Source: an uncultured Eubacterium sp. (GTDB taxonomy: Bacteria; Bacillota; Clostridia; Oscillospirales; Acutalibacteraceae). Taken from it: 57,053 bases of DNA. The stretch's first letter is position 1. Each line of letters starts with the position of its first letter. The notes beneath the pieces were generated by a model. The model was not told the origin of the DNA. It did no database searches and saw nothing but the letters and a program-made list of their open reading frames with translations. A program made the translations under genes and the position numbers. Shown piece by piece: positions 84-40,524 of the stretch. The stretch spans positions 22,293-79,345 of the forward strand of contig CAJOJV010000030.1 in the NCBI GenBank assembly GCA_905234995.1, read 5' to 3'.

Positions 84-426
84 CAAATCCCAATTTGTCT
101 ATTCAACTCTCCTTCGTATATCATCCAAAACATTCTTTTCAATTCTTGAAACGTAGCTTCTGCTTATATTCAGCCGCTTTGCAACCTCTCTTTGCGTAAG
201 CGGCTTTTTGTTATTCAGTCCGTACCGCAGAATAATTATCTCTTTTTCGCGCTCGACATTAAGTCCGCTGATGATTTTTGAAACCTTTTCCCACCTGATT
301 TTGTTTTCAAGCTCCTCGGCTAAATCCCTGTTGTCGCTTATTGTGTCCTGCAGCGTAAGCGGGTTTCCGTCCTTGTCGCTTTCAAGCGAGTCGCCGAGAT
401 ATACGTCGTTTGCGCTTTTTCTCAGG
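84..426 (-). repeat. 343-bp direct repeat, copy A (sigK 3' half)
   Basis: This stretch matches 39842-40184 without gaps and in the same orientation, with about 18 mismatches by eye (near 95% identity). It covers the C-terminal half of sigK plus about 15 bp past its stop codon. Similarity ends abruptly on both sides, at CAAATCCC on the left and CTCAGG on the right. Confidence 0.9.
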
Positions 427-437
427 CAGTATTTCAT
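99..437 (-). pseudogene. sigK: sigK C-terminal half (sigma-70 regions 3-4), copy A
   Basis: The translation carries a sigma-70 region 4 helix-turn-helix: EREKEIIILRYGL, then LTQREVAKRLNISRSYVSRIEK. This matches the C-terminal half of the late mother-cell sporulation sigma factor SigK. The N-terminal half (region 2) is absent here; the residue run LRKSANDVYLGDSL starts at the point where skin elements split sigK in Bacillus and Clostridium. The nominal Met start is an accident of the junction. The recombinase remnant lies directly upstream on the same strand and overlaps by a few bases, which is the usual skin arrangement. It cannot act alone as a sigma factor. A second, nearly identical copy sits at 39.85-40.18 kb. 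Confidence 0.88.
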
Positions 438-855
438 TTTCTATGCGTACCCGACGGATAAAAATCCTCGTTATCATCAGGGTTTTCAGGCATTTTTACT
501 ATCTTTGACAGACTGTCGTCATATTCGCCGCCGAAGAATACAATATACGCATATTCGCCGTCCCAAATAACTTCATTTACAAAGGCGCGAATAGCCAGCC
601 GCTTCTGCTCAATGCTCAAACTGTCAACATTGTTTGCAAAGTGCTTAATTAAATCCTTCATCATTTCTTTAAATTGAGGGCGGTCGAGGTTCTTACCGCT
701 GAAGCCTTCGTCCTCAAAAACGATTGCCTTTTCCGCTTCCTCCTCACCAAAATGCATTTTCAGGTAATCGCGGCACATTTCAATCTGGTTTTCAACCATT
801 CACCCTTGCCGGTAAATTTTGATTTACGGGAATAAATTGCAAATACCTTATCCAT
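434..855 (-). pseudogene. Skin-type large serine recombinase, frameshifted and internally deleted
   Basis: Reading from 855 leftwards gives MDKVFAIYSRKSKFTGKGE, the N-terminus of a large serine recombinase with its catalytic Ser in YSRKS. After a single-base frameshift near position 800 it continues as VENQIEMCRDYLKMHFGE and the EDEGFSGKNLDRPQF motif typical of these enzymes. It then jumps near 660 to a C-terminal tail (SIEQKRLAIRAFVNEVIWDG). Roughly 350 residues between, including the zinc and DNA-binding domains, are missing. Its stop codon lies at the sigK junction, as in skin elements where the recombinase gene ends at the attachment site. It is inactive as read, so the element could not excise unless helped in trans. 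Confidence 0.85.
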
Positions 856-1151
856 AAAGCACCACCAAAATATAATATGCTACTTTCTGTTTAACATAAT
901 AAGAGTCAAATTCAAGTGATTTATTCAAAACTCAAAACAAGGTCCCAAAAATCAGTCACAGTACCGTTGCAACAACCTCGCTGGGTATAAAAACTTAACA
1001 AGGCTCTTTAAATAATTTTAGAAAAACAATAATAAAACCCTTAAAAATCTACATCATTCAAAAAATGATTTGTAATTTATTTTCGGGGTGGTATAATGCA
1101 GGGCAGTCTATCACAAGCCGATTACAAATAATTCTTACCTAAAAAAGCGAT
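856..1151. other. AT-rich intergenic region
   Basis: No convincing gene, RNA or terminator is visible here. It separates the recombinase remnant (minus strand) from the operator of the first two-component system (plus strand). Confidence 0.5.
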
Positions 1152-1184
1152 TTGTTGGACATTTGTTGGACACAATGCTATACT
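1152..1184 (+). promoter_or_regulatory. Operator 1 / promoter of the first two-component system
   Basis: TTGTTGGACA occurs at 1152-1161 and again at 1163-1172, an 11-bp period. A -10 box TATACT follows at 1179-1184. TGGACA inside the first repeat lies 17 bp from the -10 and could serve as a weak -35. The same tandem motif recurs at 3439 and 7200 and as a half-degenerate pair at 3280. Direct repeats one helical turn apart, just upstream of a -10, are the usual target of OmpR/SARP-type winged-helix activators, so autoregulation by the regulator at 2459-3259 is the simplest reading (inference). Confidence 0.75.
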
Positions 1185-1217
1185 ATAGATATAGTAATCT
1201 AAAAAAGGACTAATTGT

Positions 1218-2462
1218 ATGACTGAATACATTATTTTAATCCCTCTTGCAACTTTGATATTAGGCTTAGCGCCTATTGTGGCACGTGACAACTATCTTAA
1301 TAAAAATCAAAAGAACATCATGTTTGCAATCGTCGGTCTTATCGGAGCACTGGTGCTTCAGAATGTTGCGGATTATATACTGCAAACGGTAGTATTAGCA
1401 CCGTATATCAGAACGCTTGTAAGTATATTCGGTTACGCTGTTCGCCCTGTAATTATTGTTCTGTTCTGCAAGTTAGTAAAACCAAATGGTAAAAATGCTT
1501 TCGCATGGGTTATGGTCGCAGTAAATGCAGCCGTGTATCTTACGGCAACATTTTCGCACTTTGCTTTTTATATTGATGAAAACAACCATTTTCATGGCGG
1601 TGTATTCTATTTCAGTAAAACCGCTTTCGTCGTCAGCTTTGCATTGCTTTTTCATTTGATTTATTTCGTGGTCAGTGAATATCGCAAGAAAAAGACGTGG
1701 ATTTGGATACCGATTGTTAATATTATATTGATTATCATTGCGTCGATTCTTGACATATCGCCTGCTTACGTTGATTTTCCTGTAAGCTATGTTACCATTT
1801 TTGCTGTATGCTGCAGCCTTTTCTATTATATCTGGCTGCACCTTGAATTCGTTAAGGAACACGAAAACGCGCTCAAAGCAGAGCAACGAATTAAAATAAT
1901 GATGTCGCAAATTCAGCCGCATTTTCTGTATAACACGCTGTCCACCATTCAGGCGCTTTGCATTACCGACCCCGATAAAGCGGCGAGGGTAACGGAGCAG
2001 TTCGGAACGTATTTAAGGCGCAATCTTGATTCATTGAACGATATGGATTTAATTCCGCTTAACAAAGAACTTGAACACACAAAGGTATACGCAGAAATTG
2101 AAATGGTGCGTTTTCCTAAAATCTCGGTTGAGTATGACATTCAGGCGGAGGACTTTTTTCTTCCTGCGCTGACTATTCAGCCGCTTGTTGAAAATGCCAT
2201 CCGCCATGGAGTTCGCAGCCGTGAACACGGCTTGGTAAACATCGCCACAAGAGAGGACAACGGAATTTATATAGTAATTATCAGTGATAACGGGATAGGC
2301 TTTAAGGCGGATAATGCCGACAGTACAGAAGGCAGCCATATCGGTATTGCAAACGTAAAAGAGAGAATAAGCACAATGTGCAAAGGAACGCTGGATATTG
2401 ACAGCCGTATTGACGAAGGAACAACAATCACGATAACCATTCCTAAAGAGGAGAAAATATGA
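1218..2462 (+). CDS. LytS/YesM-type sensor histidine kinase (HK1)
   Basis: This 414-residue membrane kinase has about six or seven hydrophobic segments in residues 1-215, with no large extracellular domain. A HisKA_7TM/His_kinase-type H-box follows (QIQPHFLYNTLS, phospho-acceptor His235). The GHKL ATPase domain shows an N-box (ENAIRHGV) and a G1 box (DNGIGF). It should autophosphorylate on His235 and pass phosphate to the regulator encoded next, whose ATG overlaps this gene's stop by 4 bp. AAGGA precedes the ATG. The signal is unknown; a membrane-buried sensor suggests cell-envelope stress or a hydrophobic ligand. A paralogous kinase lies at 15990-17278. Confidence 0.9.
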   Translation: MTEYIILIPLATLILGLAPIVARDNYLNKNQKNIMFAIVGLIGALVLQNVADYILQTVVLAPYIRTLVSIFGYAVRPVIIVLFCKLVKPNGKNAFAWVMVAVNAAVYLTATFSHFAFYIDENNHFHGGVFYFSKTAFVVSFALLFHLIYFVVSEYRKKKTWIWIPIVNIILIIIASILDISPAYVDFPVSYVTIFAVCCSLFYYIWLHLEFVKEHENALKAEQRIKIMMSQIQPHFLYNTLSTIQALCITDPDKAARVTEQFGTYLRRNLDSLNDMDLIPLNKELEHTKVYAEIEMVRFPKISVEYDIQAEDFFLPALTIQPLVENAIRHGVRSREHGLVNIATREDNGIYIVIISDNGIGFKADNADSTEGSHIGIANVKERISTMCKGTLDIDSRIDEGTTITITIPKEEKI

Positions 2463-3259
2463 GAGTAATTTGCGTAGATGACGAACATTTAGTACTTAAC
2501 TTGGTTGTGTATCTTTGTGAACAGTTACCTGAGATTGACGAGGTTAAGGGTTTTACAGAGTCAAAAAAAGCTCTTGAATGGCTGCAAACCAATAAAGCCG
2601 ACCTTGCTATTCTTGATATTGATATGCCCGTCATTGACGGAATAAGTCTTGCCATAAGAATTAAGCGGGAGCAACCGACTGTTTCGGTTATATTTTTGAC
2701 AGGCTATTCAAAATACGCTGTTGAAGCGTTTAAAATGCACGCGCAGGGTTATTTGTTGAAGCCTGTTAATAAGGAAATGCTGCAAGCGGAAATCAGATAT
2801 GCTATGTCCTCAAAGGCAGTGCCTAAGGAAACAAAAATATACGTAAAGACCTTTGGCGAGTTTGAAATATTTGTTGACGGCAAGCCCGTGCATTTTGCCC
2901 GTTCAAAGTCTAAAGAACTGCTTGCTTTTCTGATAGACGCCAATGGAGCAAACGTATCAAGGGCAACTGCGTTTTCAGCACTGTATGAGGATATATTCTA
3001 TGACAGAAAAATGCAAAAGCAGTTTGACGTCATTGTGCGCAGTCTCAGGGAGTCACTTAATGTAAGCGGTGCCGGAGAAATATTTGAAATAAAATCGGGT
3101 ATGATGCGTCTCAATACAGATTTATTTGATTGCGATTTATACCGTTTACTAAACGGCAACGTAGACGCAATTAATGAATTTCGCGGGGAATATATGAACG
3201 CTTATTCGTGGGCTAACATTACAGAGGCAAGCATTACAACTAAGTACGGAAAAGAATAA
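2459..3259 (+). CDS. Response regulator with SARP-type winged-helix domain (RR1)
   Basis: The 266 residues begin with a receiver domain (acidic pocket DDE at 7-9, phospho-acceptor Asp53 in LDIDMP, conserved Thr in FLTGYS, Lys in LLKPVN). From about residue 123 a winged-helix DNA-binding domain follows (VKTFGEFEIFVDGKPVHF) of the OmpR/SARP kind, and then a short tail like the start of a BTAD domain (EFRGEYMNAYSWA). The usual long BTAD is missing. It is the partner of HK1 by position and 4-bp overlap. Likely target: the TTGTTGGACA tandem repeats (inference). The gene at 17280 encodes a paralogue with the same architecture. Confidence 0.88.
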   Translation: MRVICVDDEHLVLNLVVYLCEQLPEIDEVKGFTESKKALEWLQTNKADLAILDIDMPVIDGISLAIRIKREQPTVSVIFLTGYSKYAVEAFKMHAQGYLLKPVNKEMLQAEIRYAMSSKAVPKETKIYVKTFGEFEIFVDGKPVHFARSKSKELLAFLIDANGANVSRATAFSALYEDIFYDRKMQKQFDVIVRSLRESLNVSGAGEIFEIKSGMMRLNTDLFDCDLYRLLNGNVDAINEFRGEYMNAYSWANITEASITTKYGKE

Positions 3260-3279
3260 AAATTTAAAACTATATCATT

Positions 3280-3300
3280 TTGTTGGACATTTGTTGGGGA
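3280..3300 (+). promoter_or_regulatory. Extra operator-1 pair without a clear -10
   Basis: TTGTTGGACA at 3280-3289 is followed 11 bp later by the degenerate TTGTTGGGGA at 3291-3300. No -10 box follows at the expected distance; instead a hairpin-rich stretch begins at once. It may be a relic operator displaced from its promoter by an insertion, or an upstream auxiliary site for the promoter at 3439-3473. Confidence 0.55.
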
Positions 3301-3301
3301 C

Positions 3302-3392
3302 GTTTGCGACCGCTCGCAGTGCGAGATTAAGGGAGCAATAAGGAGTGGTAGCGGTCAAAATTTGTCGGCGCTGCAAGCCTAAACAAATTTTG
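3302..3392. repeat. Hairpin-rich insert between two operator copies
   Basis: Nested inverted repeats are visible: GACCGCT (3308-3314) with AGCGGTC (3350-3356), CTCGCA-G-TGCGAG (3313-3325), and CAAAATTTGT (3356-3365) with ACAAATTTTG (3383-3392). The block separates two operator-1 pairs and resembles a small palindromic insertion. A loosely similar hairpin pair lies at 34515-34573. Confidence 0.45.
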
Positions 3393-3438
3393 GGCACCGC
3401 AACAGGATATACGTAGTTTTTTCGTAGCACTTTAATGT

Positions 3439-3473
3439 TTGTTGGATATTTGTTGGACACAACACTTTATAAT
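3439..3473 (+). promoter_or_regulatory. Operator 1 / promoter of the L,D-transpeptidase operon
   Basis: TTGTTGGATA at 3439-3448 and TTGTTGGACA at 3450-3459 form the 11-bp direct repeat. TATAAT follows at 3468-3473, 18 bp after the start of the second repeat. There is no good -35 of TTGACA type at 17 bp from this -10, consistent with an activator-dependent promoter. Confidence 0.75.
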
Positions 3474-3505
3474 ATAAAAAAATCAATAAAAAAGGAGTAT
3501 CTATT

Positions 3506-4276
3506 ATGAGCAAAAAAGTAAAAACAGTGATAGCCGTTATGGTAGCCGTTATTGTAGTCCTTGCGGGTTCGCTGGTTTACGTCAGCACGGACTCGCAAAA
3601 GAAGATTGCAGTGGCTAACGCAAAGTATCAGGACGTAGTGGATAACTACAAGTTGTACAAGAACATTATCTCTCAGGACGAGGTTGAGCAGACCCTGTTT
3701 GGTCAGCCTATTTCAACCGAGCGTGACGGCGAGTACAGAATCGGTATTAAAACCGCTATTGACGGCGATTACCATGCTGAGCTCACCGTTTATCAGGCAA
3801 AGGGCGGCAAGTATGAAAAGCAATTCACCTGCGAAGCGCTCGTCGGTAAAAATGGTCCCGGTAAGCAGTCCGAGGGCGATACAAAAACTCCGCTCGGCAC
3901 TTGGGAAGTAGGCGAGGCTTACGGCATTAAGGACGACCCCGGCAGCAAAATTCCGTTTACCAAGGTTACGGACGATATGTACTGGTGTGCAACCGGCTCA
4001 AACGGCAAAAAGTACAACACTCTGCTTAATAAAAAAGATGACCCTGATAACGATTATTCCGAGGATGAGCACCTTATGGATTACCCGATAAGATATGCTT
4101 ATTTCCTTGATATGGGCTACAACAAGGCAGGCGCGCCGTATGCAGGCAACGCAATTTTCCTTCACTGCTGGAAAGAGCCTGATTATCCTACGGGCGGCTG
4201 TGTTGCAGTATCTGAAGAAGATATGGTAAAAATCCTTCAGACAATTACTCCCGGCACAACGGTAACGGTTTATTAA
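3506..4276 (+). CDS. L,D-transpeptidase (YkuD family), membrane-anchored
   Basis: The 256-residue protein has an N-terminal membrane anchor (about residues 6-26) followed by an extracytoplasmic YkuD catalytic domain. The active-site signature is present: His220 in FLHCW and Cys232 in TGGCVAVS, with GDTKTPLGTW upstream as in COG3786 members. Such enzymes make 3-3 cross-links or attach proteins to peptidoglycan stems. GGAG precedes the ATG at good spacing. It is first in a co-directional cluster (3506-6991) behind an operator-1 promoter, so it is probably induced by RR1. A wall-linking role for the neighbouring surface proteins is possible but unproven. Confidence 0.88.
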   Translation: MSKKVKTVIAVMVAVIVVLAGSLVYVSTDSQKKIAVANAKYQDVVDNYKLYKNIISQDEVEQTLFGQPISTERDGEYRIGIKTAIDGDYHAELTVYQAKGGKYEKQFTCEALVGKNGPGKQSEGDTKTPLGTWEVGEAYGIKDDPGSKIPFTKVTDDMYWCATGSNGKKYNTLLNKKDDPDNDYSEDEHLMDYPIRYAYFLDMGYNKAGAPYAGNAIFLHCWKEPDYPTGGCVAVSEEDMVKILQTITPGTTVTVY

Positions 4277-4277
4277 T

Positions 4278-4856
4278 ATGAAAAAAGTTTTATTAGTCAG
4301 TGCCTGCGCAAGACCTGATTCAAGGACTTATGCGCTTGCAAAGAAAGCGGCAAGCCTCATGAATGCAGATTACAACGTTATTCATTTGTATAACGAAAAT
4401 CTACAGCCTCTTGATTATTACAACCTTTCAAAGCGGGAAGAATTTATTCAGCAAAACGATTTCAGCGATGATATGTTCCGCTTTGCTAAGGAATTTGCCG
4501 AGGCAAATGAAATAGTCATTGCCGCCCCATACTGGGATTTATCCTTCCCATCAATCTTAAAGTGTTATTTTGAGGCAATTTGCGTAAACGGTCTTACGTT
4601 CAAATATGGCGAAAACGGGAGGGTAATCCCTCTTTGCAAGTGCAAAAGATTAATATACGTTACCACTGCAGGCGGATATATAGGCGAAAACAATCACGGC
4701 TATGAATACATTAAGGCGCTTTGTCATAACCTTTTGGGGATTGAAAGCATGGCTTGTATTTCCGCCGAAGGACTGGATATTATCGGCAATAATATTGAGG
4801 AAATTCTCATTAATGCCGAAAAAAATATAAAAAACCTAATTAAAAAAGGAAAATGA
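4278..4856 (+). CDS. Flavodoxin-fold NAD(P)H-dependent oxidoreductase
   Basis: The 192-residue cytosolic protein matches the Flavodoxin_2 group (FMN-dependent NADH oxidoreductase/azoreductase-like). An N-terminal beta strand and phosphate loop (MKKVLLVSACARPDSRTY) is followed by APYWDLSFPSILKCYFEAI and VTTAGGYIGEN, the usual flavin and active-site loops of that family. It starts 1 bp after the transpeptidase stop, so the two are translationally coupled. The natural substrate (quinone, flavin or azo compound) cannot be read from the sequence. Confidence 0.82.
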   Translation: MKKVLLVSACARPDSRTYALAKKAASLMNADYNVIHLYNENLQPLDYYNLSKREEFIQQNDFSDDMFRFAKEFAEANEIVIAAPYWDLSFPSILKCYFEAICVNGLTFKYGENGRVIPLCKCKRLIYVTTAGGYIGENNHGYEYIKALCHNLLGIESMACISAEGLDIIGNNIEEILINAEKNIKNLIKKGK

Positions 4857-4859
4857 AAA

Positions 4860-5273
4860 ATGCAAAAGATTACAAAATTATTATTCCCGATTATTGCAAT
4901 TATCATGGGAATTATTGCTATCGTCAGCGGCGTACATAAAATGGTGACGAAGGACCTGTACGATTCAACCGTAACGGCTACTGTTGTAGACGTTCAGGAG
5001 GAATGGGACCACACAGGCGAGGACAGCGAGCTTGTTTACCACGTTTATATTGACTATGAGGTTGACGGCGTTAAGTACGAGCACGTTGAATCACCCGAAT
5101 CTGACAGCACTATGCAGGTTGGCGATAAAATTGAGCTATTATATCAGTCAAAGGACCCATCAAAAATCTCAGGTAAGAATATAACGGGCAACTCCGTAAT
5201 TATGATAGTTATCGGCGCAGTCGTTGCAATCGGAGGAATTATTGCAGAAATCAGAGCGTTAATAAGAAAATAA
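4860..5273 (+). CDS. DUF3592-type membrane protein
   Basis: The 137 residues form two membrane segments (about 7-24 and 113-132) flanking an extracytoplasmic beta-rich stretch (ATVVDVQEEW, YHVYIDYEVDGVKYEH, GDKIELLYQSKDPSKI). This is the layout and motif set of DUF3592 proteins; their function is unknown. The gene starts 3 bp after the preceding stop codon and belongs to the same transcription unit behind the operator-1 promoter. Confidence 0.75.
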   Translation: MQKITKLLFPIIAIIMGIIAIVSGVHKMVTKDLYDSTVTATVVDVQEEWDHTGEDSELVYHVYIDYEVDGVKYEHVESPESDSTMQVGDKIELLYQSKDPSKISGKNITGNSVIMIVIGAVVAIGGIIAEIRALIRK

Positions 5274-5292
5274 TACATAAAGGAGTGTTTTT

Positions 5293-5982
5293 ATGAATTA
5301 CAAAATTGAAGGCGGCAATCTTCCCGTACTTCTAGTTCAGCTTGAAGCAGGGGAGGAAATGAAGTGCGAAGGCGGCTCAATGAGCTGGATGGACGACGAA
5401 ATTGAAATGAAAACGCAGGGCGGCGGCATCGGCAAGATGTTCGGTAAGATGTTCACGGGCGAAAGTATGTTCAGCAACGTATACCATGCTAATAAGGCAG
5501 GCGAAATCGCTTTTGCATCCTCCTTCCCGGGCTCAATAAGAGCGATTGAGGTAACTCCCGACAAGCCCGTTATTGCACAAAAAAGCGCTTTTCTTGCAAG
5601 CTACGGCGATATTGATATTTCCGTATTCTTCCAGAAAAAACTCAAATCAGGTCTTTTCGGCGGCGAGGGCTTTTTAATGCAGAAGTTCAGCGGCAACGGT
5701 ATTGTATTTATTGAGATTGACGGCTCTGCTGTGGAATATGACATTCCCGCAGGCGACTGCAAAATCATTGACACGGGCTACCTTGCAGCGATGGACGCTT
5801 CCTGCTCTATTGATACAAGAACGGTTAAGGGCGTTAAAAACGTGCTCTTTGGCGGTGAAGGACTTTTCAACACGGTTGTAAAAGGCCCCGGTCACATTAT
5901 CGTTCAGACAATGCCTATTCAGAAAACCGCTATGGCAATTGATCCGTTCATTACCAAAACCACAACTACAACAAGCAACTAA
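5293..5982 (+). CDS. TIGR00266/AIM24-family protein
   Basis: This 229-residue soluble protein matches the AIM24/TIGR00266 family. It opens with YKIEGGNLPVLLVQLEAGEE and contains EGGSMSWMD, FASSFPGSIRAIEV, GEGFLMQKFSGNGIVFI and the C-terminal GGEGLFNTVVKGPGHIIVQT. Family members form a beta-sandwich fold of unknown biochemical role and often sit next to stress or envelope genes. AAGGAG is well placed upstream. It is the fourth gene of the putative RR1-controlled operon. Confidence 0.87.
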   Translation: MNYKIEGGNLPVLLVQLEAGEEMKCEGGSMSWMDDEIEMKTQGGGIGKMFGKMFTGESMFSNVYHANKAGEIAFASSFPGSIRAIEVTPDKPVIAQKSAFLASYGDIDISVFFQKKLKSGLFGGEGFLMQKFSGNGIVFIEIDGSAVEYDIPAGDCKIIDTGYLAAMDASCSIDTRTVKGVKNVLFGGEGLFNTVVKGPGHIIVQTMPIQKTAMAIDPFITKTTTTTSN

Positions 5983-5997
5983 AACAAGCAGTTTAAT

Positions 5998-6991
5998 TTG
6001 GATGTATTAAATTATGAAAAAGTTTTATCAATTGTGATGGCAATGCTCGTTTCGTGCTTTGCAATCAGCACGGGCGCTATGGCTGCAGTAATCCCCACCA
6101 TTAAGGATGGCGGTGAGAGTGTTCCCGTTACCTATCCGAAAAACGGTTTGGATGAAAAATCCGTTAAGATAGCAAATTCGTTCCCGAAGCAACGGGCTGG
6201 TATGAATTTGAGTGCGACGCGCTCTATACAAATTCTTCTTCATCTGCTGAAGATATCCCCGCGGTGTATTCGCAGTTGATTTAGAGGAAACGGATTATAC
6301 GGAAACGCAGGGAATGTGCTTTTTCCTTGACACAACAAAACTAAGCGATGAGATGAAGGCGGAATATAAGTCATACGGCTTTAATATTGATAACGCAAAC
6401 TGTCTTATCACTTCTGCTCTTTATGAAAAAGGCAAGACCTACTACGTTACTGGTTATAATGACGGAACAGAGAATTACACGGCTAACCTTACTGTAAAAA
6501 CTCACACTCACACTATTAAGAAGGATAATGAGGATAATGTTAAGGTTAACAAGGACGGCACAAGCGGCGAAGCAGGCGGAAAATACGAGACCTGCACGTG
6601 CGGCTATTGCAACTATATTGAGTATACTGAGAACTATAAGCAGATTGTCGGCACAACCGTTAAAAACGCTGTTTACACAGGCAAGAAGCTTGAGCCCGCA
6701 GTAAGAATTGAAACTGCCGACGGCAAAAAGCTTAACAAAAAATACTATACGGTAAGCTATGAGAGCAACAAGAAGGTCGGCAAGGGCAAGGTTATTATCA
6801 AGTTCCAGAACGGCTACACGGGAACAGTTAAAAAGACCTTTAAGATTAATCCTAAAGCAACAACCGCAACATTTAAAAAGCTTAAGGGCGGCAAGAAATA
6901 CTATGTTCGCGTTCGTACCTACAAGGAAGTAAGCGGCAAAAAGTATTATTCTGCATGGACAAAGGCAAAGACTACAACGGTTAAAAAGTAG
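5998..6991 (+). pseudogene. Exported protein with C-terminal Ig/Fn3-like domain, frameshifted
   Basis: The open frame is broken. A signal-peptide-like stretch (VLSIVMAMLVSCFAISTGAMAA) is in a frame that lacks a well-placed ATG; the ATG at 6014 with its lysines is one base out. The reading then shifts near 6180 (to VPEATGWYEFECDALYTN) and again near 6265 (to VFAVDLEETDYTE). From 6314 it runs clean for 225 residues: a CTCGYCNYIEY zinc-like pair, a beta-sandwich region and a basic Fn3-like end (KKYYVRVRTYKEVSGKKYYS). It looks like an extracellular protein gene with two or three indels; phase variation or read error cannot be excluded. Confidence 0.7.
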
Positions 6992-7053
6992 TATTATCAA
7001 TACAAAAAGGCTGTGAAAACAGGAGAATAATAACGCTTCATTCATAAGACTAA

Positions 7054-7234: not shown

Positions 7235-7287
7235 TATTTATTAACAGTAATTATATATAGAACTTAAAACTATTGATATGTGTTTTA

Positions 7288-31694: not shown

Positions 31695-31696
31695 AA

Positions 31697-32209: not shown

Positions 32210-34150
32210 TTAAATTCTTTTCCCTGTGTGCTCCTTAATTTCGCCTGAACGATATGCAGAAAGAAGCATATTCAGATTTTTAATGCGCTCAGCAAAATCT
32301 GCTCCCTGATCTGTTTCGGAGATTTTCATTCTGTGGTCAAAACGCTCAATCAGATTTACCTGTGGCGATTCGGCATTTTCATCGGAGATAAACGGCTTGT
32401 GTTCGGCAAGAATATAGCTGTTGGAATCGCAAATCAGCGTGTATCCGGCAATACCTGTTGCTTTCTGATAAGCCTTTGAAATACCGCCGTCGATAAGGAA
32501 CAGCATCCCACCTGCCTTAATAGGACTTTCACCGTTTTTGATTTTTACAGGTACATGACCGTTTATGATGTGTCCCTTTTCGGGGTTAAGGTCAAATTCC
32601 TTTAATATAGCTTTACAGGTGTCTTTCTGCTCGGAGTAGTAATAATAAGCGTTATAGCTTTCCTTATGCAGTGCCTTATCCTCAAGAAAATATCTTTCGA
32701 AAAAAGCCATTTTATCCTTGCCGAAGAGAGGAGATATAGGACCGCACCAAAGATACCAGAGATAGTCGGCAGCATCTGTTTTTTCCTTTCCCTGTGGAAG
32801 AAAATACGCCTTGTTGACGATTTCGTCTATTTTCTCAAATAACGCCCTTCCGCTGTACTCCTTTTCGCCTACGTGAACGCTTTGCATATTGCCGTTTTCA
32901 TCAAGCGGAATACAGCCGTGGAACAGAAGGTTGCCGTTAGTTATTTTATAGGCAGAGCCGTTTGAATACAGAAACCTGATGTGTTTATTGAGTCTGTCGC
33001 TGTGCATAAATGAATTGGTCAGCACATTCATCAGCTCGTCTTCTTCTTTGCTTAAAGCAAGCGGTTCGTTCGGATTGACAGTCGGGAAGTTTGTGTCTAG
33101 GAGATGATGCACTTTTCCGTCAAAGGTTACGGTGTAATTGTTAAAGTCAACTCTGCTGAAAATATTTCTGTCATCCATATTCCATTCGGGATGACGTTCA
33201 ATCAACTGACCCTCTAATTTGAGCTGTATAATTGATATTGCCTTGTGCATTTTTGCCGTCAGTTTTTCGTCAACGGTGTCATAAATATTGTCGTCAAGTG
33301 CATGCGGCATATACAGCTTGCAATCGTCATCCTTGTATGTTTCGCCGGCAAACACGGCAAGGGCCCTGAGATTCAGTCCGTATCCGTCTTCAAGCACATC
33401 GAAATTATCATAACGCATGGCAATACGAATAACGTTTGCAATCAGCGCCTTGTTTCCCGCCGTGGCGCCCATCCAACTGATATCGTGGTTACCCCACTGA
33501 ATATCAACATCGCTCATTGTCATAAGCTTGTCCATAATGATATCCGGACGGGGACCTCTGTCGTAAATGTCGCCTATAATATGCAGTTTATCAATAGCAA
33601 GCGTCTGTATTAATTCGCATAGTGATTTAATAAACCTGTCGGCAATACCCGTTTCAAGAACAGTAGATATTATTTCTTCGTAGTAGTAATCCTTCTCGTC
33701 ATCGCCGGCAACATGCAAAAGCTCGTCAATAATATACACCATATCTTCGGGAATACTCTTGCGAACGTGTGAACGGGTATACTTCCATGAAACGGCTTTG
33801 CAGACTAAAACCAATCTGTTTATTGTAAGCCTTCGCCAGTCGTCATTGATTTCGTCGCTTTCAATCATTTTTTTGAGTTGTCTTTCCGGATAATAAATAA
33901 GATATGCCAGCTGTTCGCGTTCTGTAGTTGATATGGTTTTACCAAGCCTTATATCAATTTTCTCTTTAATGATACCAGATGCACTTTTGAGCATATGTAA
34001 AAAGGCTTCATATTCGCCGTGAATATCGCTGAAAAAATATTCCGTTCCTTTCGGAAGGCTGCCTATCGCCGAAAGGTTTACAATTTCAGACGCAGCGCTC
34101 TGCTCCGTTGGAAAGTTGTTTGCAAGAAGCGATAAATACTTGTTGTTCAT
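32210..34150 (-). CDS. fbp: Fructose-1,6-bisphosphatase, class III
   Basis: The 646-residue cytosolic enzyme hydrolyses fructose 1,6-bisphosphate to fructose 6-phosphate in gluconeogenesis. Metallophosphatase motifs of the class III (Firmicutes) type are clear: FFSDIHGEYEAF, GDIYDRGPRPD, IQWGNHDISWMGA, and later NGHVPVKIKNGESPIKA. The length is typical (about 640-670). The Met before NNKYLSLLANNFP is chosen as start because AGGAGTG precedes it; a longer frame upstream lacks a site. It is transcribed alone on the minus strand from the promoter at 34188-34216. It separates the surface island from the decayed region. Confidence 0.95.
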   Translation of the reverse strand: MNNKYLSLLANNFPTEQSAASEIVNLSAIGSLPKGTEYFFSDIHGEYEAFLHMLKSASGIIKEKIDIRLGKTISTTEREQLAYLIYYPERQLKKMIESDEINDDWRRLTINRLVLVCKAVSWKYTRSHVRKSIPEDMVYIIDELLHVAGDDEKDYYYEEIISTVLETGIADRFIKSLCELIQTLAIDKLHIIGDIYDRGPRPDIIMDKLMTMSDVDIQWGNHDISWMGATAGNKALIANVIRIAMRYDNFDVLEDGYGLNLRALAVFAGETYKDDDCKLYMPHALDDNIYDTVDEKLTAKMHKAISIIQLKLEGQLIERHPEWNMDDRNIFSRVDFNNYTVTFDGKVHHLLDTNFPTVNPNEPLALSKEEDELMNVLTNSFMHSDRLNKHIRFLYSNGSAYKITNGNLLFHGCIPLDENGNMQSVHVGEKEYSGRALFEKIDEIVNKAYFLPQGKEKTDAADYLWYLWCGPISPLFGKDKMAFFERYFLEDKALHKESYNAYYYYSEQKDTCKAILKEFDLNPEKGHIINGHVPVKIKNGESPIKAGGMLFLIDGGISKAYQKATGIAGYTLICDSNSYILAEHKPFISDENAESPQVNLIERFDHRMKISETDQGADFAERIKNLNMLLSAYRSGEIKEHTGKRI

Positions 34151-34187
34151 AATAAACACTCCTAAATACTCGTGAAAACATATCTCA

Positions 34188-34216
34188 ATTATATCAAAAT
34201 AATTGCTTTGTGTAAA
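34188..34216 (-). promoter_or_regulatory. Promoter of fbp
   Basis: On the minus strand TTTACA (34216-34211) is followed after 17 bp by TATAAT (34193-34188), a near-consensus sigma-A promoter about 38 bp upstream of the chosen fbp start. Confidence 0.8.
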
Positions 34217-34264
34217 GTTGTTATCACTTGAGAAAGTATGCGAAATCATTTTATCTTTTGAGGA

Positions 34265-34294
34265 CTGCCCCGCAGAAATGCGGGCAGTTTTCTT
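34265..34294 (+). terminator. Orphan plus-strand terminator
   Basis: CTGCCCCGCA-GAAA-TGCGGGCAG forms a strong stem with one bulged C, followed by TTTTCTTT. No plus-strand gene lies immediately upstream, so it is probably a relic of a rearranged neighbourhood. Confidence 0.6.
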
Positions 34295-35054
34295 TAATAA
34301 ACAATTGTCAAAAAATGCGTGGTGGTCAATTAACGGTCATTTGGTAATTTTGCAGGCAGTTTGTGTCTTAAATGTTAATGCGATAGCAAAACGCTCAATT
34401 GAAATTATTTTGAAGAGAAAATTTGAATGAATAATATACCGAGTACCCGAATGGGTAAACATATATCCCTACTTGTCGTACTGAATAAAAGTAAAGACAT
34501 CTCACTCGTTATCGAAAGGTGCACCGCACCTTTCTCCCAAATTCTTGCAGCCTGCGGCTGTAGAATTTGGAACCTCGTGTTCGAGTCCCTTCCGGCGTAC
34601 TGGTTCGTAGAATGGCTCGGCTCTCTGAATGAAGCGCGTTCGTGCGAATTTGGCGCTATTGTCCAGACTTTTTGGCGGGCATTTTACATCTGGCGCTCTT
34701 CTGTGGAATTGTCTTTAATTCTCAAGTGGTCAAAATTGTGGTCAAAACACAGATGAAAGATAATAGAAACGCAATCAAAATTTGAGTAAGGGGTTAGTCA
34801 CCAGGTGATCACGAACTACTTAAAAGGGAAACTTTTAAAAAAGTAATAGACACAGATTATTATCCCACCAGAAATCTTAAAACGGGGAAATTGCACAAGA
34901 AAAACTGAACGGCTGATTCGCATATTTCCCAAGCGTAGACCAATACTTTTTTGCCGAAAATCGCCTTATAAATCGCAGAACGTTTTTTCCTGTGAAATTT
35001 GCAATATATGTGTGCTTGTGGTAAAATGAACGCATAACTACATGCGGTGTTAAT
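34295..35054. other. Non-coding, rearranged-looking region
   Basis: I see no convincing gene. Two hairpins stand out: AAAGGTGC-ACC-GCACCTTT (34515-34533) and a roughly 15-bp stem CCAAATTCTTGCAGCC/GGCTGTAGAATTTGG (34538-34573). A TTCGAGTCC run at about 34580 resembles a tRNA T-loop but cannot be folded into an arm. A frame ending near 34755 in KLWSKHR is reminiscent of an integrase tail but too short to call. Confidence 0.45.
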
Positions 35055-35075
35055 ATGAGTATTAGGGGAAAAGAA

Positions 35076-35780
35076 ATGAAAATTGCAAACGGGATGGACT
35101 TTATTAATGATGAAGCCGTTATAGGGAAATGGAAAAATATCGGTTGGATTGGAAATACACATTGTACTTCTATTGACGACTTAAACGAAGACAGCGGCGA
35201 ATATGATACACTGTATTTCCTGCAAAACGGTGAACCCTATTGGATATTTGAAGGTTGGACAAAGGGCATTCTTCTAATACATTACGGCGGCGATGAACCT
35301 ATTCTTACATATAAATACGATATTCAAAGAATTGACAATAAGGATTATCTGTTTTTCAGAGTAGAAGATAAGACCGAAGTTTTCATTAAGGTCAATTCCA
35401 AACAATACACTAAAGCAACTCTCGGTAGACACGATAATATTGAACTTCCTTTTGTTTACGATGAGATAATAATCGGAAAATGGAAGTCTGTTGCATTTGT
35501 TGATACAATAGAATCCTTTTCCCCTGACAAAGAGTGTGATAGTCTTTATCTAAAAGAAATTGATTTTTCTTCTGATGGTAGATTAGTGCAGACAACTATG
35601 GATGAGGTATGGCATGACAAATGGACGAAAGGGTCTGTTATTAATCTTCATCGTACAACCGTTGCTACTTATGAAATACGTGTTATAAACGGCACGGAGT
35701 ATTTGTTTATGGAGTGGAAAATGGGCAACTACATTTATGGCGGTATGGCTCCCGAGTTTTATGTGTTTGTTCGTGCATAG
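35076..35780 (+). CDS. Protein with two tandem lipocalin-like (IGKWKxV) domains
   Basis: From the ATG at 35076 (AGGGGAA at good spacing; an in-frame ATG at 35055 is weaker) the product is 234 residues without a signal peptide. Two copies of a roughly 100-residue beta-barrel-like unit are visible. Each starts with VIGKWKNIGWI or IIGKWKSVAFVDTIESF and contains WTKGxxLxH, TYKYDIQRIDNKDYLFF / TYEIRVINGTEYLFMEW and a final Tyr/Phe-Val strand. This unit is familiar from the C-terminus of some clostridial BlaR1-like and stand-alone proteins; its ligand is not known. It stands alone between the non-coding stretch and the broken phosphorylase. Confidence 0.65.
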   Translation: MKIANGMDFINDEAVIGKWKNIGWIGNTHCTSIDDLNEDSGEYDTLYFLQNGEPYWIFEGWTKGILLIHYGGDEPILTYKYDIQRIDNKDYLFFRVEDKTEVFIKVNSKQYTKATLGRHDNIELPFVYDEIIIGKWKSVAFVDTIESFSPDKECDSLYLKEIDFSSDGRLVQTTMDEVWHDKWTKGSVINLHRTTVATYEIRVINGTEYLFMEWKMGNYIYGGMAPEFYVFVRA

Positions 35781-35821
35781 GAATAATCAACAATTTATGA
35801 TAACTTTAAGAAGGAATTTAT

Positions 35822-36589
35822 ATGTGGAAGTATAACGAAGATACTACAAAGCCGATTATTACAGCAAAGACACATATAGAAAGCGGACATAAAAGCGGCT
35901 GTGAACAACTGCCTTCAACGGCTGTATTGTTTTATATGCACGGCGGCATTTATTATATGAAGCTGAAACATAAAGGCAGACTGCTTTCAAAAAAGTTTCC
36001 CCGTTTTCTTAATGCTTGCCCGATATATAAAATGAAAGATTACGATATCTGATTTCTTGACGGCGGCAGAGGTGCTCCGCAGGCGGTTGACACACTTGAA
36101 ACGCTTGCAGCTATTGGTGTGAAAAATGTAATCACCATTGGAATGTTTGGTGCATTTGGAGAAGCTGTTGAAAGCGGCGATATAATTATACCGAACAAGG
36201 CGCTTGTTGAAGAAGGGACCTCATTACACTACTACGATGAAATTGAATATGCTGAACCAAACGCAGAACTGTTGAAAAAAGCGGCAGAAACGATTGACGG
36301 CGCAAAAGCTTTGCCCATTGTTTCAACTGATGCTGTCTATCGTCAGACCTTCTTTAAGGAAGCGCTGTGGCGTGAAAAGGGTGCGGTAGGTGTAGATATG
36401 GAAACCTCCGCTCTTTATAGTGTCGGTGCGCTACTGGATATAAATGTCGTTTCAATTCTTATTGCTTCTGATAAACACCCTTTAAACGAGGGCGAAAGTG
36501 CTTGGAAATGGACAATGAATAACAAAGTGCGCTTCGAATTTTTCGATAAGTGCATCGAGTTTGCTAAAACCATAGATAGTCGGAGGTAG
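35822..36589 (+). pseudogene. Nucleoside phosphorylase (PNP/UDP family) with in-frame UGA
   Basis: One reading frame spans 255 codons but is broken by TGA at 36050-36052. Before it: PSTAVLFYMHGGIYYMK and FLNACPIYKMKDYDI. After it, in the same frame: FLDGGRGAPQAVDTLETL, ITIGMFGAFGE, EEGTSLHYYDE and the hallmark VGVDMETSALYSVGA. These are the phosphate, base and ribose-binding motifs of the nucleoside phosphorylase-I family, enzymes that split nucleosides to base and ribose 1-phosphate. AAGGA precedes the ATG. A nonsense mutation is the simplest reading; a GTG restart at 36119 would lack the N-terminal third. Confidence 0.82.
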
Positions 36590-36591
36590 CA

Positions 36592-36888
36592 ATGCAACAA
36601 AACATATATGATAATAACGAGTTCTTTGAAAACTACAAGAATACCCGTTTGAGCGATAACAGTTTCAATAAACTCTTGGAACAGCCAGCGATGAGAAAAC
36701 TGATTCCCGATGTGCAAGGCAAATCGGTTTTGGATTTAGGTTGCGGATTTGGTTTCAACTGCAAAGAGTTTGCTCTCGCCGGTGCCAAGCGTATTGTCGG
36801 CATTGATTTATCCGTTGAGGAAATCTATGTAAATATCGCAAATTACGCTTACGGCGACGGCTTAGGTAAGGCGGAATGCTTGCTATGA
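36592..36888 (+). pseudogene. Truncated class I SAM methyltransferase fused to hydrolase remnant
   Basis: GGAGG precedes the ATG. The first 75 codons hold a class I methyltransferase start with motif I (VLDLGCGFGFNCKEFA) and the following acidic strand (RIVGIDLS). The sequence then changes character and reads ANYAYGDGLG, the nucleophile-elbow region of an alpha/beta hydrolase, before a frameshift stop at 36888. The rest of the methyltransferase is missing. A deletion has apparently joined two unrelated genes. Confidence 0.75.
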
Positions 36889-37376
36889 CGATTGCTGCCC
36901 GTTATTCCGAGCTTGTTAAAAAGCTGATGCTCGGCTCCTCTTCGGCACGTATTACCGAAAAGCAGTTTAACGCAATATCGAAGTGGACTGCTCTGGCAAA
37001 TAAAAAAGACGGAATTAATCTCAGCCTTGAAATGGGCAGGGTCCTTTATCCCGAGGCACTTTTTGAGCAGAATAAAGAGGTGCTGAAAAAGACGGGCGAA
37101 AGCATTACCGACGAGGAATTCTCACGCTTTATCACTTTTGCCGAAGGTACAAATGATTTTGATATATCAAAGGAACTATGCAATATTAAATGCCCTGTTT
37201 TATCGCTCGGCGCAGCGGACGATAAGGTGCTGCCAAACGCCGCAGAAGAGCTTGAAACGTTGTTTTCGGGCAATCCGAATTTTGAAAGTTATCTGTATAA
37301 CGGCTGCGGTCACGCAGCTTTTGACACTGCGCCCGATTATAAAGAGCGCCTGCTACACTTTATGAATAAGGAGTAA
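36876..37376 (+). pseudogene. 5'-truncated alpha/beta hydrolase
   Basis: The frame encodes the C-terminal two thirds of an alpha/beta hydrolase: MLAMTIAARYSELVKKLMLGSSSAR, a helical lid, then CPVLSLGAADDKVLP (catalytic Asp region) and YNGCGHAAFD (catalytic His). The preceding elbow, read in another frame, is GDGLG where GxSxG is expected, so the nucleophile Ser seems to be replaced by Gly as well as being out of frame. Its N-terminal third is gone. It lies 4 bp before the dipeptidase gene and probably shares its transcript. Confidence 0.75.
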
Positions 37377-37380
37377 CATT

Positions 37381-38043
37381 ATGGCTATTGATTTTAAAAA
37401 AGAAGCGGAGCTTGACTGCTCACGCTTCGTGCTTCTTTCGGATTACGTTCCCTCCATCGTGCAGGAAATCCGTTATTTTTCAACCTATAACTTTGTCGGT
37501 GACAGAGTTGACGGCTATGAGGAGCCCTGTGCAATTATTACGAAGGACGCGGCAAGAGCGCTCAAGGCCGTTGCAAACGAGGCAAACGTTGCCGGATATC
37601 GCTTAAAAGTATTTGACGCGTACCGCCCTGCAAGAGCAGTAAAGCATTTTATGCTCTGGGGAATAGAGGATTTGGATTTAAGAACGAAACCGTTCTTCTA
37701 TCCCGACCTTGAAAAAACGGCGCTTTTTGAACTCGGATATATCGCAAGTCAGTCAAGCCACAGCAGGGGAAGCACCATTGATTTAACGCTGCTTGATATG
37801 GCGACGGGCAAGGAAATTGATATGGGCAGTCCGTTTGATTTTTTCAGCGAGGTCTCCCATCCCGATTACAAGGGCATTACCGACGTTCAGTACGAAAACC
37901 GTATGTTCCTGCAAAGAATGATGGTGCGAAACGGATTTGAGCCGATAGACTGCGAATGGTGGCATTTTACGCTCAAAGACGAGCCGTTTCCCGATACATA
38001 CTTTGATTTCCCCGTTTCAGCGGAATATCTGAAAAACAAATAA
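37381..38043 (+). CDS. D-alanyl-D-alanine dipeptidase (VanX/DdpX, peptidase M15D)
   Basis: The 220-residue protein has the full M15D zinc site: SSHSRGSTIDLTL supplies His127 and Asp134, and EWWHF supplies the catalytic Glu192 and zinc-binding His195. YRP (Tyr81-Pro83) provides the transition-state Arg82. The enzyme hydrolyses D-Ala-D-Ala to D-Ala. It has no signal peptide, so it acts in the cytosol. AAGGAG precedes the ATG. No vanH, D-Ala-D-Lac ligase or vanRS pair lies nearby, so a role in D-amino-acid salvage or wall turnover is more likely than glycopeptide resistance. It is intact among broken neighbours. Confidence 0.9.
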   Translation: MAIDFKKEAELDCSRFVLLSDYVPSIVQEIRYFSTYNFVGDRVDGYEEPCAIITKDAARALKAVANEANVAGYRLKVFDAYRPARAVKHFMLWGIEDLDLRTKPFFYPDLEKTALFELGYIASQSSHSRGSTIDLTLLDMATGKEIDMGSPFDFFSEVSHPDYKGITDVQYENRMFLQRMMVRNGFEPIDCEWWHFTLKDEPFPDTYFDFPVSAEYLKNK

Positions 38044-38059
38044 ATATACTGTGGAAAGC

Positions 38060-38100
38060 ATTAAAGAGTAGTGCCATTTCGGTAACTACTCTTTAATATT
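38060..38100 (+). terminator. Terminator of the dipeptidase gene
   Basis: ATTAAAGAGTAGT and ACTACTCTTTAAT form a 13-bp stem around a 12-base loop, 16 bp after the stop codon, with a T-rich end. Confidence 0.82.
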
Positions 38101-38165
38101 TCTAAATAAAAATTTTATATAACACCTGGGATAAAATCTTTAGAAAAATAATAACAAACCCCTCT

Positions 38166-38996
38166 TCAAATAACGACTTTGTATCTTCCGACGCCGAAAC
38201 TGAACGTGTCGCGAATAATTATGCTTTCGGGAATCTGTTTCAGCCACTTCTTGCTGAAATTGGTGTTGCCAAAATACATATCAAAGTTAGCCGTCGGTAG
38301 CACGACCCATTCTGAATCGTCGGGCTTATTTGCAAGGTAGTATTGTATTAACAGAACGATAACTTCATCAGGCGCGCCGCTTTTATTAAGCTCGTTAATT
38401 CTCTTCAGCGTTTCTTGCGACAGAATAACTGTTTTGTCTTTCAGCGGACCGAGTACTAATGCATCTGCAACAATACTGTCAAAAGTCATTACCCAGCTTT
38501 CTGTATGCGGTGTAAAGATATGATATTGAAACTGCATCAGTTTTTTGCGCCACTCTCTGTCGAACTTATCTCCGAGCAAATCCGCTTTCTTTACAACGGA
38601 CAGATTGACCTTGTCTGGACTTGACCTAATATAATCTGCAACTGATTTTATATGACGGAAATACCACCCGTTACCTTTGCTGTCAACAAGTCCAGGGAAC
38701 TCACCGTGAAGGTAACGGAAATCCGCCTTGAACTGCCACTCCTCATTCGGAGTGGCTTTTTTCATTTCAGGCATACTGCACCATGCACACAAGGCACGCC
38801 GTGCACGTTCGGTATCCGGCGTTTCGGTTTCAAACATATACCCTCTGGCAATAATCGTCAGCACACGGCTTAAGCCTCTGAATTCAAGAAAGGAGTCAAA
38901 GGTGAACCTGCCGAGATATGAAGTGTCCCGCTTGCTTTCAGCCGTGTAGATAACGGGCGAGGTATATGCATTGAATTCTTCAATTTCGTTTAACAT
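38166..38996 (-). CDS. Hypothetical protein, 276 residues
   Basis: I do not recognise this family. The product is soluble, with no signal or membrane segment. Visible features are RARRALCAWCSMPEM, an aromatic-rich region (EWQFKADFRYLHGEFPGL, NGWYFRHIKSV), the helix ILSQETLKRINELN and the end FSFGVGRYKVV. Codon use looks like that of an ordinary gene. The ATG at 38996 is preferred over a TTG 6 bp upstream because AAAGGA sits at correct spacing. Its upstream flank (39003-39190) shares the minus strand with a transposon-type region, so it could be accessory cargo. Confidence 0.65.
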   Translation of the reverse strand: MLNEIEEFNAYTSPVIYTAESKRDTSYLGRFTFDSFLEFRGLSRVLTIIARGYMFETETPDTERARRALCAWCSMPEMKKATPNEEWQFKADFRYLHGEFPGLVDSKGNGWYFRHIKSVADYIRSSPDKVNLSVVKKADLLGDKFDREWRKKLMQFQYHIFTPHTESWVMTFDSIVADALVLGPLKDKTVILSQETLKRINELNKSGAPDEVIVLLIQYYLANKPDDSEWVVLPTANFDMYFGNTNFSKKWLKQIPESIIIRDTFSFGVGRYKVVI

Positions 38997-39002
38997 AATC
39001 AA

Positions 39003-39224
39003 TCCTTTTTCAAAACGGTTTTTTCATTGAAGCCTCCTTATTATTCGCGTTGCTAAACCGCTTCCATAATATCAAAGGTTTCTTTTCGCCGCAACTCTCG
39101 GCTTGCTTTAAGCTCGCCATTTTGGCTTTACCAAGGTTTTCTATCCCCCAAGTAGAACTGGGGGCTATCACGCTTATAGCTGTACAATAGAAAAAAGCAG
39201 GGAGTTTGTTCTCCCTGCTTTTTG
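39003..39224. other. Non-coding flank with hairpins, including TnpV terminator
   Basis: No gene is visible. A CCCCCA...TGGGGG hairpin lies at about 39148-39168. A strong stem AAAAAGCAGGGAG-TTTGTT-CTCCCTGCTTTTT at 39191-39223 is a bidirectional terminator directly after the tnpV stop. Confidence 0.75.
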
Positions 39225-39602
39225 TTACATGGTATAAATCACTTCGGCATTTACAAGTTCTCTTGCCTGATTTACTATATTATTCATAGCACCAACCCAA
39301 GCCATCATGTCCTCGGCTTTAAGCTGTTCTGTAATGCCTTGTTGCTCTTTGAATTGCTTCACAAGGCGGTCATAGATCTCGGTTGCTCTAACATCAATCT
39401 CGTGCAGGTATGAGTTTAGTTTACAACTCGTCAAAAGAGAGCTATAAAGCACCCTATGATGTTGCTTAATATAATCACGGTGTTTTTGTCCCCAATGACC
39501 AATTTCATAGTGCGTTTCGGTTGAAATCAAATTAGGCAAGTAAACATCGCCAACAAGCGTATAACTAATACCCGTCTTTTCATCAGTAATATATTTCTTC
39601 AT
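39225..39602 (-). CDS. TnpV family transposon-encoded protein
   Basis: The 125 residues match the TnpV family found in clostridial conjugative and mobilisable transposons: YxxxGDVYLPNL, GHWGQKHRDYIKQHHRVLY, LLTSCKLNSYLHEID, then EQQGITEQLKAEDMMAWVGAMNNI and a closing ELVNAEVIYTM. Its function is not established; it usually lies among transposition genes. GGAGG precedes the start. Here it is alone, without a recombinase or relaxase next to it, which marks this as a mobile-element remnant beside the second sigK copy. Confidence 0.88.
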   Translation of the reverse strand: MKKYITDEKTGISYTLVGDVYLPNLISTETHYEIGHWGQKHRDYIKQHHRVLYSSLLTSCKLNSYLHEIDVRATEIYDRLVKQFKEQQGITEQLKAEDMMAWVGAMNNIVNQARELVNAEVIYTM

Positions 39603-39841
39603 AATTGCAATTCCTCCAAAAGTGTTTTATAATACTTACATACACATTACAGTCGTTGAGCACGCGGTTGGTTTTCCCTTATTATTTCCCACATAATTTT
39701 CGGTAAGTTTAATAATAAGCAATAACAGTTTATAATTTTTATTGTTGAGAAAACTCTAAAAAACCGTTTATTTTCAACACTTTCAGCAGATTTTATTAAC
39801 AACTAATAATCACACTTGAAACCATATAAAAATATGGTATT
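39603..39841. other. AT-rich intergenic region upstream of tnpV
   Basis: It holds the tnpV ribosome binding site and presumably its promoter; nothing else can be supported. It ends where the second 343-bp sigK repeat begins. Confidence 0.5.
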
Positions 39842-40184
39842 CAAATCCCAATTTGTTTATTCAACTCTCCTTCGTATATCGTCCAAAACCTTTTTTTCAA
39901 TTCTTGAAACGTAGCTTCTGCTTATATTTAGCCGCTTTGCAACCTCTCTTTGCGTAAGCGGCTTTTTGTTATTCAGCCCGTATCGCAGAATGATTATTTC
40001 CTTTTCCCTTTCATCCTCAAGTCCGCTGATGATTTTTGAAACCTTTTCCCACCTGATTTTGTTTTCAAGCTCCTCGGCTAAATCTCTGTTGTCGCTTATT
40101 GTGTCCTGCAGCGTAAGCGGGTTTCCGTCCTTGTCGCTTTCAAGCGAGTCGCCGAGATATACGTCGTTTGCGCTTTTTCTCAGG
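39842..40184 (-). repeat. 343-bp direct repeat, copy B (sigK 3' half)
   Basis: Gap-free match to 84-426, with roughly 18 mismatches clustered in the region 4 part. Similarity stops exactly where the sigK N-terminal half begins on one side and about 15 bp past the sigK stop on the other. Confidence 0.9.
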
Positions 40185-40524
40185 TTTCAATGCATCTGCT
40201 TGCATAGGTTGCAAGCTTTATTTTTTTGTCGGGATTAAAGCTGTCTATCGCCTTGATAAGCCCGATTGTGCCAATTGATATTAGGTCGTCGTTGTCGTTG
40301 GTGGGGGAGTAGTATTTCTTAACGATATGGCTGACAAGGCGCAAGTTTCGCTCAATCAGAAGCGCTCTTGCATCCCTGTCACCCTGCTTCATTCTTTCAA
40401 GTGCGGCTGCTTCCTCCTTCGGCGTTAACGGCTTCGGAAAGCTGGAGGCGTTATTGATATGCAAAATAAAATAAAGCAGGTTTGCGCTCAGAAAGGATAT
40501 TAAAGCAGAAAACATTTTCATCAC
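39862..40524 (-). pseudogene. sigK: sigK (sporulation sigma factor), both halves, frameshifted at the skin junction
   Basis: From 40524 leftwards the frame reads a SigK N-terminus with an N-terminal hydrophobic pro-sequence region and sigma region 2 (PLTPKEEAAALERMKQGD, ARALLIERNLRLVSHIVKKY, ISIGTIGLIKAIDSF, KLATYASRCIE). Instead of continuing through the expected NEILM motif it goes GAA-AC-CTGAGA and hits a stop, while the rest (LRKSANDVYL to RRRVE) follows in another frame. About 16 bp appear to be missing exactly where skin elements insert. As read, no full SigK can be made, so late mother-cell transcription would depend on another locus or be lost. Confidence 0.85.

Follow-up and report, generated by a model that had tools for sequence, protein, structure and literature searches.

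The stretch of DNA analysed here (hereafter the window; 57,053 nucleotides of contig CAJOJV010000030.1 from an uncultured Eubacterium sp.) carries the sporulation sigma factor gene sigK in interrupted form, with an island lying at the site used by skin elements, i.e. insertions inside sigK that depend on a large serine recombinase. A preliminary description of this DNA had placed an N-terminal half of the gene beside one C-terminal half and found a second C-terminal half at the far end of the island, in the same orientation and about 95% identical, with a recombinase remnant lying against it. The coordinates and strands of all three parts were borne out, and the recombinase stump abuts the distal copy (Table 1). 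The 3' half forms a 343-bp direct repeat with two matches, 95% identical, in the 2.04-Mb genome (74 contigs), and each repeat consists of ~328 bp of sigK and of 15 bp, on the stop codon, that belong to the hairpin end of a repeat family.

Both flanks of the gene are native. The genes beyond the 5' half (41.6-52.6 kb of the window) have matches in the corresponding sigK flank of three related genomes (G034, G030, and G022), and those outside the window on its left (-745 to -6346) have theirs in the 3'-half flank of G015, G034, G030, G019, G024, and others. The two nearest relatives found, RUG14311 (locus L084, in which the right side beyond sigK comprises 320 bases only) and UBA1438 (L085), share these flanks and contain an uninterrupted sigK; the synteny comparison suggested in the preliminary description thus gave a contiguous gene and no island in both. 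When the island open reading frames (ORFs) were searched against these two contigs at E 1e-10, no match was obtained except for the sigK copies and an antisense frame over one of them. Because the flanks are native on both sides and the site is empty in L084 and L085, the segment 427-39841 represents an insertion at the sigK skin site. None of the genomes examined combined the same 40-kb gene order with an intact sigK elsewhere.

The right attachment junction (attR) has the same layout in the window and in four relatives with a split sigK (G031, G024, G025, and G023). The recombinase stump shares 91.6 and 86.3% DNA identity with nucleotides 1-202 and 1487-1719, respectively, of the intact gene of G031, and intact counterparts of 569-578 aa were found in G031, G025, G024, G023, and G015, the last being 47% identical to that of G031. 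The sensor kinase and response regulator encoded beside the stump are 59% (411 aa) and 66% (145 aa, to the contig end) identical to their G031 counterparts, and the order of kinase, regulator, and recombinase is the same in the G031 skin element.

Both sigK halves are still open reading frames, of 114 and ~108 codons. The proximal junction is, however, 25 nt shorter than the equivalent region in L084 and L085, so that the fused frame reads ...ATYASRCIET* and then ends, and the distal copy is 14 nt shorter than in the same relatives, near its left end. The two 3' copies start at the same base despite their differing upstream contexts. Because both are out of frame with the 5' half, neither fusion nor excision yields full-length sigma-K. 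No second sigK was found in the window genome, in which the next matches are other sigma factors with ≤55% identity, and sigma-K appears to be non-functional as assembled.

Table 1. Coordinates of the features identified at the interrupted sigK locus of the window.
Feature	Position	Strand	Remarks
Hairpin-ended repeat	1..99	+	ends on distal sigK stop codon; beside 107 N
Distal sigK 3' copy	84..426	-	native right-flank position; 14 nt short near left end
Right attachment junction (attR)	427..441	-	recombinase 3' end overlaps GAAAATGAAAT core of sigK
Island at sigK skin site	427..39841		39.4 kb; native flanks both sides
Skin-type large serine recombinase remnant	434..855	-	frameshifted; ~1.3 kb internal deletion; PF00239 partial
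Sensor kinase and response regulator pair	1218..3259	+	beside recombinase; PF06580/PF02518, PF00072
L,D-transpeptidase-like, flavodoxin-like, DUF3592, and AIM24-like genes	3506..5982	+	
Probable surface/secreted proteins	6314..14639	+	225, 799, and 1635 aa; no Pfam family above cut-off
PrsW-like protease, second sensor kinase, second response regulator	15215..18077	+	
702-aa protein and 3397-aa surface protein	19374..31694	+	PF18998 E 3e-195, PF13306 E 6e-46
fbp, Firmicute-type fructose-1,6-bisphosphatase	32210..34249	-	PF06874 E 8e-278
Apparent gene fragments and M15 D-Ala-D-Ala dipeptidase	36119..38043	+	fragments with partial profile coverage
TnpV gene of small element	39225..39602	-	element starts at proximal sigK stop codon; PF14198 E 2.2e-41
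Proximal sigK 3' copy	39842..40184	-	out-of-frame fusion to 5' half; last 15 bases are hairpin end of repeat family
sigK 5' half, native copy	40185..40524	-	88-92% protein identity to N half of nearest relatives
YitT-family gene	40596..41498	-	native flank of sigK 5' half

Interrupted sigK genes in related genomes

Relatives derive from rumen, deer, horse, and other gut samples. Among the best matches in 36 genomes of the same genus, sigK was contiguous and open (222-265 aa) in 25, contiguous but with an in-frame stop in two (G012 and G018), and split in six (G015, G023, G024, G025, G031, and G034), i.e. in seven of 37 when the window genome is counted. The remaining three (G004, G011, and G035) contain no recognisable 5' half but only other sigma factors, with a 29-residue 3' fragment in G011. 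Every split gene is interrupted at RCIE(N), the same codon as in the window. The contigs of G034 end at the split, so that its element was out of view.

In G025, G024, G023, and G031, GAAAATG at the left junction is followed by CTAT(A/G)CTAACA, the 3' end of the recombinase gene passes into AAATGA(A/G)AT of the 3' half at the right junction, and the cores at the two ends match; in G015, the left end differs and the ends have a shorter core in common. When the flanks are joined at the core, an in-frame sigma-K of 227-234 aa is restored in all five genomes. The window island likewise lies between two sigK halves at the native locus, but it has no intact recombinase of its own and no matching cores at both ends. 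Because the same in silico join gives 130 aa only and not an in-frame sigK, the island was classed as a descendant or remnant of skin elements rather than a working member.

The G025 element (L066/L075/L076; C11:16.2-50.3 kb) is complete, with both sigK halves on one contig, 34 kb apart. Its 23 ORFs of ≥70 aa, 20 of which were scanned, include genes for a rhamnose isomerase, two FGGY kinases, a fucose-isomerase C-domain protein, and a class II aldolase, for glycosidases (GH1, GH2, GH3, GH32, GH43, and an apiosidase-like protein), and for an MFS transporter, an AraC regulator, a relaxase, an AAA ATPase, and, at the left end, a double-HTH protein. By its gene content, this element is a mobilizable island with a rhamnose/pectin-type sugar-utilization operon. 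Tn4451-like elements are integrative mobilizable elements with a serine recombinase and a relaxase. The G025 element resembles such elements in carrying a relaxase, an AAA ATPase, and a serine recombinase, and its relaxase and integrase are the pair that defines them, whereas no relaxase was matched among the 29 window island ORFs (recombinase included) covered by our Pfam scan, which sets the window island apart from integrative mobilizable elements.

The contigs of G024 and G023 carry genes for kinase, zinc-ribbon, and TIR or leucine-rich repeat (LRR) proteins beside the sigK halves. These differences in content between the elements of G025, G031, G024, and G023 indicate that the sigK slot is common and the cargo variable. 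On the left contig of G031 (L070:4774-8205), inside the skin element, lies a gene for a 1144-aa protein with LRR, an InlB-type repeat, and a ubiquitin domain (PF00240, E 7.8e-21, residues 720-791).

Recombinases of this kind were also found in other contexts. In contig C13 of G024, a related gene with an AAA neighbour like that in G025 is located away from the sigK halves. In Candidatus Merdivicinus (L125 and L126), a serine recombinase gene whose product is 52-53% identical to that of G031 is situated just before the sigK 3' half; these are probable skin-type elements outside the genus. Three further serine recombinases (L159, L160, and L162, in G008 C25, G021 C97, and G015 C11, respectively) share 41-43% identity with that of G031, and their genes end beside a conserved part of a membrane protein, presumably resembling FeoB, a context that suggests another insertion gene.

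Cargo of the island and its terminal repeats

The preliminary description had called the enclosed DNA not phage-like, citing two-component systems, giant surface proteins, and fbp, and this characterization held. No phage structural family was matched by any of the 29 scanned ORFs, and only three of 10 island proteins compared with PHROGs had any match, all in the 'unknown function' or 'other' category. The 3397-aa surface protein contains 18 InlB-B-type repeats together with BspA leucine-rich repeats, the 225-aa protein has a sub-threshold fn3 match, and the DUF3592 gene is 51% identical to a gene on the other skin contig of G031. The second sensor kinase is represented by two overlapping frames and is apparently frameshifted, and the fragments at 36.1-37.4 kb comprise a phosphorylase, the 5' part of a methyltransferase gene, and the 3' part of a hydrolase gene; sequencing error is possible in both cases, but these features may be signs of decay inside the island.

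The fbp gene is the sole match of its kind in the window genome. None of the 22 other genus members searched (G000-G022, the window genome being included in these 23) carries it, which rules against a displaced housekeeping gene and makes acquired cargo likelier. A match was found in five of 13 further searched genomes, all of the same order.

The DNA immediately below position 39842 belongs to the small TnpV element, and a similar element end is present beside other genes in G012 and G036. At the opposite end, positions 1-86 match 17 places in the genome (the window copy included), five of which, again counting the window copy, are identical over 86 bp. This repeat family ends in the palindrome GACAAATCNNAATTTGTC, for which 20 genome sites with ≤1 mismatch were found, compared with none in the reversed control. 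The 15 bases past the sigK stop codon were also considered as the gene's own terminator; this was rejected, as they form the end of the hairpin-ended repeat or of the TnpV element in other contexts.

Origin of the island and of the duplicated 3' half

The native flanks, the empty site in L084 and L085, the skin-type right junction, and the related G031 element with its recombinase and two-component pair together support the preliminary proposal of a stranded skin element. We put at roughly 0.87 the probability that the segment 427-39841 descends from a skin element, i.e. from a non-viral island driven by a large serine recombinase and inserted in sigK at RCIE(N), which is now decayed and stranded.

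Skin is described as prophage-like in B. subtilis and C. difficile and as exceptional among clostridia (PMC5025042), and yin in yabG is likewise presented as prophage-like (PMC10747680), whereas gin in gerE of Bacillus cereus ATCC 10987 is presented as a non-prophage gene-intervening island of a sporulation gene (PMC5595907). The window island resembles the skin elements of Bacillus subtilis (SpoIVCA) and Clostridioides difficile (CD1231) in its insertion inside sigK and its large serine recombinase, and its intact relatives would, like skin, regain an in-frame sigK by precise excision. It differs from them, as far as these are described, in its surface, signalling, and metabolic cargo, and further in the deleted recombinase, the lack of a recognised left site, and the duplicated, out-of-frame sigK 3' half. 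It is similar to gin in its non-viral content and in targeting a sporulation gene; unlike the window island, gin targets gerE, possesses three serine recombinases, and has been shown to excise, according to the cited passages, whereas the present case concerns sigK and sequence evidence only. The window is thus a decayed, non-viral variant of known skin elements. Our literature search, with limited coverage of subscription journals, found no report in which a sigK element carries a relaxase or sugar operon or in which spoVAD is split.

Several observations weigh against descent from a skin element. The right junction is present, but a left attachment site could not be recognised beside the 5' half: scans with the left ends of G031 and G025 gave best matches with 14/37 and 15/35 mismatches, respectively, in the window. 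An exact copy of the 12-base AATGCTATACTA, with which the left end of skin opens in the relatives, occurs at 1174-1185 (0.01 expected by chance) but in inverted orientation and upstream of the kinase gene; by eye, it is possibly just the -10 region of the promoter of that gene. The distal copy joins the native right flank through 107 unread bases (N) directly left of the window, an assembly gap or masked stretch, although the gene order in relatives agrees. For most of the 39 kb, the fetched skin stretches, complete for G025 alone, offered no counterpart, and only G031 shares cargo. The GC content of the island differs little from that of the flanks and so bears no foreign mark, and excision was seen in no genome. 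The duplicated 3' half is real, yet descent from a skin element alone leaves this duplication unaccounted for.

The proximal and distal 3' copies differ at 17 sites in 14 of 108 codons, 11 of which are synonymous and three residue-changing (dN 0.020, dS 0.197). In a neutral simulation with random placement, a mean of 11.8 non-synonymous codons was obtained, and three or fewer occurred in 0/10000 runs. The differences are clustered, with 12 of the 17 falling within 42 bases (reading-frame positions 165-206), and a control that preserved the clustering by shifting the observed pattern gave P = 0.032. These values suggest divergence between two working alleles, both of which broke later. The high dS combined with few residue changes disfavours the proximal copy being a recent tandem duplicate of the distal one, a rejection weakened by the clustering and by the fact that the control which preserves it reached only P = 0.032. 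As a guess, the duplication may have arisen when a circle bearing a 3' half integrated by homology or when the neighbouring repeat element captured the 3' half.

Among the alternatives, the one that survives best, though we consider it unlikely, is that the proximal 3' copy or the island junction is an artefact of assembly or strain mixing, in which another strain's excised or intact allele became attached to the left end of what is otherwise an ordinary skin element. The division of the window genome into 74 contigs, the resemblance of the two 3' copies to two alleles with clustered differences, and the break at the split in the assembly of the skin-bearing G034 would all fit such an origin. 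An intact allele, however, would run into the native right flank, whereas the proximal copy enters the TnpV element and then the island, and a junction that is 25 nt short and out of frame is unexpected for a functional allele.

The preliminary description had also offered the possibility that a duplicated sigK 3' half merely bounds a rearranged chromosomal island that is not skin. The duplication stands, the repeat being real and direct, and the paucity of cargo matches in the other fetched skin stretches is compatible with rearrangement; nevertheless, the recombinase stump, an attR arranged like that of intact skin elements, the kinase and regulator order common with G031, and the insertion at the skin codon make the rearranged-island part of this proposal very improbable. 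It is equally hard to credit that sigma-K is still made through frameshifting or as a two-part sigma factor, the duplicated 3' half being a repair that frees the cell from excision, since just after RCIE the fusion lacks 25 nt and is thrown out of frame, even though the halves remain open and the 3' copies show few amino-acid changes.

Under descent from a skin element, the following course may be envisaged. In the intact relatives, the recombinase would excise the island during sporulation, in the mother cell as known skin elements do, and thereby switch sigma-K on. In the lineage of the window, the recombinase would have been deleted and the left site lost. A second sigK 3' half, with substitutions like those of a functional allele, would have come to lie directly behind the 5' half, and small deletions would then have broken both 3' copies, with a stranded island and, as assembled, a non-functional sigma-K as the outcome.

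Sporulation genes as possible sites of accessory islands

A second sporulation gene of this genus, spoVAD (PF07451), is apparently split at ATGGCACCTG (at about 204/199 of the profile), with its parts on separate contigs. In the window genome (G000) these are located at C12:76938-77561 (L138) and C55:1354-1743 (L139), and the same split occurs in other genus members. Across 41 genomes, spoVAD was whole or nearly so in 19 (with stops in G003), represented by a 5' part only, ending at profile position 197-215, in 16 (12 of which have a 3' part elsewhere), by a 3' part only in two, and by nothing over the cut-off in four. Seven of 11 left ends share AGAC(C/T)ATAAG after the split, and one of the 11 is at a contig end. 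Because the two parts were on one contig in none of the genomes, an inserted element at this gene is only a candidate.

A broader proposal, to which we assign slightly less than even odds, is that non-viral accessory islands use sporulation genes of this genus (sigK and apparently spoVAD) as exchange slots, staying in the line that leads to the spore and disappearing only from the dying mother cell, and that the window is a fossil of permanent island capture accompanied by loss of sigma-K. If so, the cargo of the slot would be a sugar-utilization operon in one species and signalling proteins, giant surface proteins, and fbp in others, and an interrupted sporulation gene would cost its carrier little, as the island would be lost only in the dying mother cell. 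One largely uncultured gut and rumen genus holds several sigK elements with differing non-viral cargo, one of them a mobilizable island that carries a sugar-degradation operon. The decayed example in the window shows how such an element can lose its ability to exit, with sigma-K apparently lost along with it. It can now be tested whether the line that leads to the spore can carry accessory metabolic and surface genes that the mother cell gives up.

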